From positions 1 through 24,934 of IMG/VR virus record IMGVR_UViG_3300025671_000489: a stretch of 24,934 bases of DNA. The stretch is one strand, 5' to 3'. Position 1 is the stretch's first letter. Each line of letters starts with the position of its first letter. Positions 3,079 to 4,829 of this stretch are shown one piece after another. Both the position numbers and the translations under genes were made by a program. The notes below the pieces were generated by a model. That model saw only the letters and a program-made list of their open reading frames with translations. It ran no database searches and was not told where the DNA came from. The stretch comes from a virus.

Positions 3079-3699
3079 TTAAAAATTCAAGAGATACCTT
3101 CCATAGGTAAGTCCCACATAATGCTGCTGAAGATATCCATAGTCAGCAGACAGGTAATTGTTTTTTATTTTGAGGTTGATACCTGCTCCTATCATAGGAG
3201 TGTATTGTGTATTGAAGTCAGATATCAGACCTACTTTGGCATGCATGCCGAGTGCAAAATTTGCACCTACCACTTTTTTAGGTAAATAATCAATTACTAA
3301 ATTCTCAGTTACATTCTGGTAGTTCTGCCATTGAAGTCTAAGTGCACCACCTCCAACTGGTGCAGTTGTGTCATAGTGCACTACCTCAGTAAGCCAAGAC
3401 TCTATTATCTTAACGGTATCTATTACAAGAACGCTGTCGTAAGTATTGATATATCTTATATCATGTACGGTATCATGTACAGTATCATGTACGGTACGCC
3501 ATTCTACAAATCTTAGAGTGTCATATTTCCAACGATCTACGTACTCAATTGTAGGAACTGGCTTTTCGATGATAGTGGTAACAGGCTTACCGCTTGTGTC
3601 ACCGCACCCTTTCCACGCAACTATTACTCCAAGTAGGAATGCTATCAGGTACGGTAGGAACGTACTTAGAAGATGTTTTACTATATCATTGTTCAGCAT
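3079..3699 (-). CDS. Spanin-like envelope protein: inner-membrane anchor plus beta-rich C-terminus
   Basis: The 206-residue product has one clear N-terminal transmembrane segment (about residues 10-29), followed by KGCGDTSG and a polar stretch rich in D-T-V/L units with a triple VHDT repeat at 70-80. The C-terminal half (about 140-206) is made of short alternating strands such as GANFALGMHAKVGLIS and HYVGLTYGRYLLNF, and it ends in Phe, as many outer-membrane beta-barrel proteins do. No lipobox precedes Cys32. Anchored 'DTV'-rich proteins are common in Bacteroidota phages (possibly the DUF6808 group, number from memory). Position two genes after a holin suggests it disrupts or bridges the outer membrane at lysis, as spanins do. 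The lysis role is an inference; a phage-encoded membrane protein unrelated to lysis is possible. Confidence 0.72.
   Translation of the reverse strand: MLNNDIVKHLLSTFLPYLIAFLLGVIVAWKGCGDTSGKPVTTIIEKPVPTIEYVDRWKYDTLRFVEWRTVHDTVHDTVHDIRYINTYDSVLVIDTVKIIESWLTEVVHYDTTAPVGGGALRLQWQNYQNVTENLVIDYLPKKVVGANFALGMHAKVGLISDFNTQYTPMIGAGINLKIKNNYLSADYGYLQQHYVGLTYGRYLLNF
3460..3495 (-). repeat. Three in-frame 12-base tandem repeats in the spanin-like gene
   Basis: Three consecutive copies of a 12-base unit (plus-strand atcatgtacggt, with one base changed in the middle copy) encode the (TVHD)n stretch of the spanin-like protein. The unit is a multiple of three, so copy-number change would alter linker length without shifting the frame. 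Confidence 0.85.
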
Positions 3700-3780: not shown

Positions 3781-4236
3781 TTAGTTGTTAAAGCTTGTTT
3801 TACCGTTACCACATATCTCAACATCTATCTCTTCCGGAACAACAGCCATGATAGCTTTGAATGTATTCTTGGAGTTAGTAATGTCAGTGATCCCATCATT
3901 GTTTATATCCTTGTGTTCTCTTCCCACAAGTATACATCCTCTTATATCCGGACGTCCTGTTCTGGGATTCAAAGACCCTGCATAATTACCCCAATGGATC
4001 AATATGAGAGATCTTCCTTCTACATCCTGTATGTGCAGATGCCTGCTGTACTTTTTAGAGAATCTTATCTTGGCCTTGTAATTTCCTTCTGGAATGCAAG
4101 ATTCATTCCTTAGATTGTTTTTCCATGGAAGTTCCAATGTCTTGAATTGAAATAGAATATTCCCATCAACATCTTGAAGATAGGCATGCCCTAAGGTCTG
4201 CTTTTCTCTGTATGATCTGTCAATATGAATCTTCAT
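3781..4236 (-). CDS. DUF5675 family protein, candidate lysis enzyme
   Basis: The 151-residue product matches the DUF5675 family as I know it: TLELPWKNN near residues 33-41, SCIPEGNY at 46-53, LIHWGN at 79-84 and GCILVG at 100-105. The spacing of His81, Asn84 and Gly100-Cys101 recalls the His...Gly-Cys active site of L,D-transpeptidase-type enzymes, although the family has no experimentally proven activity that I can cite. It lies between a holin and a spanin-like gene, the place normally held by an endolysin, and no other endolysin is visible in the window. Residues 110-118 (DINNDGITD) look like an EF-hand or dockerin-type calcium loop. There is no signal peptide, which fits holin-dependent export. 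The family call is fairly firm; peptidoglycan cleavage is inferred. Confidence 0.78.
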   Translation of the reverse strand: MKIHIDRSYREKQTLGHAYLQDVDGNILFQFKTLELPWKNNLRNESCIPEGNYKAKIRFSKKYSRHLHIQDVEGRSLILIHWGNYAGSLNPRTGRPDIRGCILVGREHKDINNDGITDITNSKNTFKAIMAVVPEEIDVEICGNGKTSFNN

Positions 4237-4340: not shown

Positions 4341-4829
4341 TCACTTCTCAAATACCTTCTTTATTTTTTCAATTAAAGCTGAGACATCAAACCTGTCATC
4401 AAGTGCCACAATGTTCTCAAGTATCGATTTACCTTCTGTTCCCATCAGGAACGAATACGCCCATATGACAATCCACCCGAACAGTTCAACCTGCTCTCCC
4501 TTAACCTCAAAACTATCAAGTCCGTGTATGACTATGAGGAACGCTCCGTACTGTAACGCCTTCACTGCCGTCCTGCGTATCCCGTATGATGTGACAGCGT
4601 GTTTGTTCTTGATCGCCTTTGCTATACCTGTCACAAGGTCAACCATCATGAACGTAACGAGCCACTTTAGAAACTCCCAATCAGCGAAGAGGTACTTCTC
4701 CGTGAACGCGAACAGTGGTGTTATGACGAACGTGAACGCCCATATCTTTACGTCAGTAAAGTTTGCCGAGAACTTCAGGGCTACATCCTTGAATACTCCC
4801 CAATCGTCTATGGTGTGGTCTGCTTTCAT
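4341..4829 (-). CDS. Phage holin (toxin-secretion/lysis holin family type)
   Basis: This 162-residue protein has the features of the TcdE/phage-holin-4 type: hydrophobic segments at about residues 29-45, 52-72, 90-103 and 115-130, and the family hallmark MVDLVTGIAKAIKN at 62-75 (D64, T67-G68) followed by basic residues and SYGIRRTAVK. It ends in a charged amphipathic tail (IEKIKKVFEK). Holins assemble in the inner membrane and open it to let the lytic enzyme reach peptidoglycan; the next full gene is the DUF5675 candidate enzyme. The start overlaps the upstream stop by ATGA. The first codons (MKADHTI) are duplicated 1.36 kb upstream within a 24-base direct repeat. By eye this gene is richer in CpG than its downstream neighbours, which may mark a different origin. 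Confidence 0.85.
   Translation of the reverse strand: MKADHTIDDWGVFKDVALKFSANFTDVKIWAFTFVITPLFAFTEKYLFADWEFLKWLVTFMMVDLVTGIAKAIKNKHAVTSYGIRRTAVKALQYGAFLIVIHGLDSFEVKGEQVELFGWIVIWAYSFLMGTEGKSILENIVALDDRFDVSALIEKIKKVFEK

Follow-up and report, generated by a model that had tools for sequence, protein, structure and literature searches.

Introduction

Which protein deals with the outer membrane when Crassvirales, a group that includes abundant gut viruses, lyse their hosts? Kongari et al. 2018 listed Bacteroides phage B124-14 and Croceibacter phage P2559S as spanin-less, with criteria that omit other topologies, and gave an outer membrane protein serving as o-spanin as one possible example (PMC6139136). 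A 2025 survey, in which spanins were selected by transmembrane (TM) and lipid-box features, reported that Bacteroidetes phages use unimolecular spanins only (PMC12596118), and a review of the Crassvirales mentions spanins in general terms only (PMC10136315). The locus described here lies in a linear virus record from IMG/VR, 24,934 bases long, which was analysed whole and is referred to as the window. An earlier note on this DNA had proposed that one of its genes, encoding a protein of 206 aa, is a single-protein spanin with an outer membrane-like beta C-terminus. We ask whether the gene belongs to a lysis cassette, what its protein looks like across a family of relatives, and how it compares with known spanins.

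The gene and its lysis cassette

The window is a Crassvirales fragment, because it encodes a CrAss_Ring_2 protein (Pfam), its portal, terminase and major head proteins match PHROG families, and its major capsid protein is 43–45% identical to those of Crassvirales phages. On the minus strand, structural genes are followed by a 67-aa ORF, a holin, a DUF5675 gene and then the 206-aa gene, beyond which lie a 101-aa ORF, a gene for an exonuclease/phosphoesterase-like protein and the gene for ring protein 2 (Table 1). The 206-aa gene is very likely a member of the lysis cassette, third after holin and endolysin. Several points of the earlier note are borne out by the models and searches described here: the N-terminal hydrophobic helix, the polar DTV-type linker, the strand-rich C-terminus, and the holin and candidate enzyme upstream.

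Table 1. Features of the candidate spanin-type gene and its cassette, in window coordinates.
Feature	Position	Strand	Basis
Candidate spanin-type gene, 206 aa, third in lysis cassette	3079..3699	-	ORF, synteny
N-terminal membrane-anchor helix, residues 3-32	3604..3693	-	AF2 helix; hydrophobic core LPYLIAFLLGVIVAW
Cys32 of GC motif, just beyond membrane helix	3604..3606	-	Family alignment
Polar Asp-Thr-rich linker, residues 33-105	3385..3603	-	Low AF2 confidence
HDTVHDTVHD repeats, residues 71-80	3460..3489	-	Alignment of relatives
Three predicted strands, residues 106-140, invariant W..NYQN..E	3280..3384	-	Moderate AF2 confidence
Predicted four-stranded amphipathic antiparallel sheet, residues 148-203	3091..3258	-	pLDDT mostly about 90 or more; DUF6808 hairpin match
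DUF5675 gene, endolysin slot, H...GCI motif	3781..4236	-	Pfam E 4e-27
Holin (Phage_holin_4_1), first gene of the cassette	4341..4829	-	Pfam E 4e-14

A protein family that follows endolysins

Scans of viral contigs yielded 95 distinct relatives of the 206-aa protein, with identity down to about 36–40%. They share many invariant columns, including the motifs IEYVDRW, W(L/I)xE, YDT and WxNYQNxxE and a set of patterned glycines in the C-terminal strands, a likeness far beyond chance. The family is previously undescribed. Sequence searches of Pfam, PHROG and the PDB with the protein and the family profile gave no match (for the window protein, no Pfam family at E≤1), tblastn against annotated phage records found no relative, the sole match having an E of 5, and no bacterial or archaeal relative was confirmed among 84,980 genomes scanned.

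At the loci of these relatives ORFs were called, duplicates removed and neighbours labelled by similarity to seeds that had been checked against Pfam and PHROG; the counts below are for the 73 distinct loci that have 700 bp or more of upstream DNA. GH24 lysozyme is the direct upstream neighbour at 29 of them, compared with 18 for peptidase M15, five for Amidase_2 and three for DUF5675, so that an endolysin-type gene directly precedes the family gene in 55 of the 73. A 120-aa protein (P25) takes this position in 11 others, and a holin or small TM gene precedes most. The earlier note had regarded homologues encoded consistently away from lysis genes as evidence against its reading; that condition was not borne out, for at 65 of the 73 loci the family gene has an endolysin or a recognised holin no more than four genes away. 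That four unrelated enzymes swap in one slot while the family gene stays is what would be expected of a third member of the cassette, and this synteny is the strongest evidence in the case for the family gene.

Adjacency to a holin and an endolysin would also suit a lysis-timing protein, antiholin-like or endolysin-tethering, that does not disrupt the outer membrane. Two single-TM proteins from the lysis region of crAss001, gp27 and gp28, are annotated "lysis regulatory protein". Such a role is improbable for the window family, however, as its gene is found alongside four unrelated endolysins and several holins, which makes specific binding to either unlikely, and a timing role needs neither the long linker nor the conserved C-terminal sheet. 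It is also conceivable that the product serves in the virion or in superinfection exclusion and that the place of its gene in a late operon is accidental, since structural genes flank the cassette and four loci (L008, L014, L015 and L017) have left it, the family gene there following a radical-SAM-like gene and not standing beside lysis genes. Against this, the post-endolysin position is conserved across very different neighbourhoods, and an analogue in the cultured Crassvirales phage phi14:2, gp087, is absent from the structural proteins detected by MS; we consider this explanation very improbable.

Several further observations concern the composition of these neighbourhoods. At the four loci outside the cassette, where the contig continues, a MazG-like gene follows the family gene, a possible relocation. 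The most divergent clade (L088, L089 and L090) has an additional gene of 112–128 aa between lysozyme and family gene. Small, charged coiled-coil proteins with one TM segment often precede the endolysin, as in crAss001 (25698-26033, L169) and in cluster TM18, found upstream of lysozyme at many loci (e.g. L071, 2114-2338), and these could be holins or spanin partners. DUF5675, which occupies the endolysin slot in three of the 73 loci, carries an H...GCI motif like that of L,D-transpeptidases; crAss001 gp30, a protein similar in type, is annotated as L,D-carboxypeptidase/transpeptidase. DUF5675 is plausibly a peptidoglycan hydrolase.

Membrane anchor, cysteine and linker

The full-length AF2 model is poor overall (pLDDT 59) and contains a helix at residues 3–32. 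The flanking charges (+0.7 versus +0.2) have a weak N-in bias, and we infer an N-in (type II) topology for the protein. The linker that follows, about 75 residues rich in Asp and Thr, would measure about 25 nm when fully extended; it is of low confidence or disordered in AF2, lacks a coiled coil, and carries D-T-V/I repeats including the HDTVHDTVHD run. At the DNA level, window positions 3460-3489 are a 12-bp tandem repeat coding HDTV units, and copy number varies among relatives in steps of four residues.

Of 85 full-length relatives, 84 retain a GC pair directly after the helix. The residue before it in these 84 is K (51), R (17), Q (15) or D (1), and 63 have W as the third residue ahead of the Cys; the window protein has WKGC. 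Judged by match to consensus only, the motif is a poor fit to a lipobox because the preceding residue is charged or Gln, not small, and the third before the Cys is mostly W. Nevertheless, WKGC, WQGC and SKGC might be read as an unusual lipobox of an atypical u-spanin or o-spanin, a lipidated protein whose beta part acts in the periplasm. Conservation of the GC pair would be in keeping with this, as would the functionality of unusual lipoboxes such as AWAC (PMC6139136) and the reported exclusive use of unimolecular spanins by Bacteroidetes phages (PMC12596118). The charged or Gln residue present in all 84 sequences, and the frequent W, speak against it, and so do the analogues described below, in which the TM-proximal Cys either stands in a clearly non-lipobox context (FTEC in phi38:1, GKTC in csAssE-Sib) or is absent (BKO1-TP3, BF1-TP2 and phi14:2). 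We regard lipidation of this kind as unlikely, with the near-invariance of the TM-adjacent Cys leaving it some small probability. A disulfide, by analogy with two-component i-spanins, is one plausible role for Cys32.

Search for a lipoprotein partner

The search for lipoprotein-like ORFs, defined by a regular expression, took in every forward frame between points 3 kb before and 2 kb after the gene at 64 loci. No conserved one was found apart from the family gene itself in the WQGC subgroup. Two relatives of 79–84 kb, read piece by piece, contained no convincing lipoprotein, though the records searched may be incomplete. Across the loci searched, no embedded, overlapping or nearby o-spanin gene accompanies the family gene.

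The C-terminal sheet

An AF2 model of residues 100–206, built from a 58-sequence alignment, has seven antiparallel strands (pLDDT 81, pTM 0.46). The last four (148–160, 166–178, 181–190 and 192–201) reach a pLDDT of about 90 or more, while it is uncertain how the two sub-sheets are placed against each other, as the pTM indicates. Across the family the strands alternate between hydrophobic and Gly or polar positions (p=0.0004 summed over seven strands, within-strand permutation; p about 0.04–0.05 for each of strands 4–7). The residues of the hydrophobic face are W/F, L, V, L; Y, F/M, V/L, L; F, A/V, Y, F; and I, V, V, I, whereas Gly, Asn, Gln, Ser, Asp and His make up most of the opposite face. 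In strands 4–7 the hydrophobic face is long and has aromatics at its ends, and the opposite face is Gly-rich. As modelled, this sheet resembles outer membrane strands and fits an outer membrane-interacting sheet, although soluble sheets may alternate too.

No PDB fold matches the model significantly. The earlier note had named a predicted soluble fold for the C-terminus as evidence against its reading; the model matched no known soluble fold, and this condition too was not borne out. The closest compact Foldseek match is the anchor of the trimeric autotransporter AtaA (rmsd 3.6 over 58 columns, probability 0.72), a resemblance that at an E of 1.3 is not significant and is suggestive only. Like the AtaA and Hia anchors, the 206-aa protein would contribute four antiparallel amphipathic strands per chain; unlike them, its N-terminal part leads to the inner membrane and not to the surface, and there is no sequence similarity. 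Against viral models, Foldseek returned one match at E 4e-4, W8CQR3.

Two elements of the earlier note did not survive these comparisons. A monomeric outer membrane beta-barrel of the OmpX or OmpA type, with eight or more strands, is not supported, the model having only seven strands, no significant fold match and a pTM of 0.46. The aromatic C-terminal residue, which might have served as a BAM signal, is a peculiarity of the window and few others, the last residue in 91 sequences being R (52), L (24), K (11), F (3) or M (1).

That a closed barrel is not predicted lends some weight to another explanation, in which the protein is half of an i-spanin-like system: a soluble periplasmic sheet binds a host outer membrane protein, lipoprotein or LPS, so that the outer membrane side is supplied by the host and nothing inserts. 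An N-terminal TM segment with a conserved membrane-proximal Cys does recall two-component i-spanins, in which a periplasmic Cys is ubiquitous (PMC6139136), and crAss001 gp27 and B124-14 gp16, both encoded in lysis regions, have coiled coils and a C-terminus different from that of the window family. However, the linker of the 206-aa protein has no coiled coil, and the hydrophobic face of strands 4–7, with its end aromatics and Gly-rich reverse, is not what one would ordinarily see in a soluble sheet that has no packing partner. We give the host-supplied arrangement an appreciable but minor likelihood.

DUF6808 and analogues in other Bacteroidota phages

DUF6808 (PF20647 / PHROG 26448), of unknown function, is similar in layout to the window family, with an N-terminal TM segment, an Asp-Thr-rich linker and a terminal beta-hairpin. 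This hairpin aligns with the first hairpin of the window-family sheet at an hhalign probability of 78% and a score of 36.2, whereas none of 150 column shuffles exceeded 22.2 and the reversed control gave 18.8, and its GxG..P..GxG pattern is present in the window family. The two differ in that DUF6808 ends in a single hairpin and the window family in four strands, and the middle regions differ as well; none of 34 scanned family members reached the Pfam gathering score for DUF6808.

Like the window family, DUF6808 genes have endolysin neighbours in Bacteroidota phages. They come directly after endolysins, or one to two genes from them, in Bacteroides phages BKO1-TP3, BS-TP4, BS-TP1 and BF1-TP2, in phage csAssE-Sib, in the Elizabethkingia phage TCUEAP3, and in contigs of Prevotella and Phocaeicola; by inspection, the order in a Prevotella contig is holin-like, endolysin-like, DUF5675-like, DUF6808. 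Among the papers searched, none names DUF6808.

In phi14:2, gp087 stands between a GH19 enzyme and a metallophosphoesterase, and its relatives in phi38:1 (gp084) and Calle come after an amidase. It has a TM segment and a terminal run that by eye resembles four short strands. Profile comparison gives no support for homology with the window family, scoring 15.6 against shuffles of up to 21.2, and we treat gp087 as an analogue only.

A candidate spanin-type function

Our best reading is that the 206-aa protein acts in spanin-type disruption of the outer membrane as a type II protein that has a beta C-terminus and is not a lipoprotein, which we consider fairly likely. The single-protein spanin of the earlier note is thereby upheld in part: cassette position, anchor, linker, beta C-terminus and the lack of a lipoprotein partner agree with it, and the monomeric barrel and terminal aromatic do not. 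Under this reading, helix 3–32 would anchor the protein N-in in the inner membrane, the extended linker of about 75 residues would cross the periplasm, and the amphipathic C-terminal sheet would engage the outer membrane. Once the inner membrane had been opened and the cell wall broken down by holin and endolysin, the protein would link inner and outer membranes by one polypeptide and help to disrupt or fuse the outer membrane, acting with neither a lipobox nor a lipoprotein partner. Both contact with the outer membrane and its disruption are what we infer.

It could also be that the sheets of several copies close into a small oligomeric outer membrane barrel, giving a protein with a TM helix at one end and TM beta-strands at the other. 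We regard this more specific arrangement as possible but less likely than not; if it were true, a spanin class lacking lipid anchors would be widespread in Bacteroidota phages, including the window family, DUF6808 and proteins of the phi14:2/phi38:1 type.

Compared with a unimolecular spanin such as T1 gp11, the 206-aa protein is alike in being the product of one gene that ends a holin–endolysin cassette, in its beta-rich periplasmic part and in bridging, as proposed, the membranes with one polypeptide. Its polarity is reversed, with the inner membrane anchor N-terminal, and it has neither a consensus lipobox nor a C-terminal TM helix, ending instead in predicted beta-strands; the part of the earlier note's reading that sets it apart from known u-spanins is supported in this. 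In addition, u-spanins have no periplasmic Cys (PMC6139136), whereas Cys32 is kept throughout nearly all of the window family. With two-component i-spanins such as lambda Rz it shares the N-terminal TM segment, the probable type II topology, the periplasmic Cys and the position in the cassette, but it has a beta C-terminus in place of a coiled coil and, unlike Rz/Rz1, no linked o-spanin lipoprotein gene was found in the 64 loci and the two longer relatives. By defining features the protein is outside both known spanin classes, though it probably works like one. A TonB-like reading, which the TM segment, linker and beta C-terminus might bring to mind, was set aside for the lysis-cassette position and the lack of a TonB match.

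The missing outer membrane step in Crassvirales has strong candidates in the window family and the DUF6808 proteins, and a candidate function is now attached to a Pfam family that had none. Cultured relatives and analogues, namely phi14:2, phi38:1 and the DUF6808-bearing Bacteroides phages, make the spanin reading directly testable.

One DUF6808-type gene has an odd setting. Inoviruses are regarded as phages that leave their hosts without lysing them. In a 4.6 kb circular record called Inovirus (MT135313.1, L162), which has a Zot-like gene, an M15-peptidase-like gene followed by a DUF6808-type gene lies at about 404-1523.
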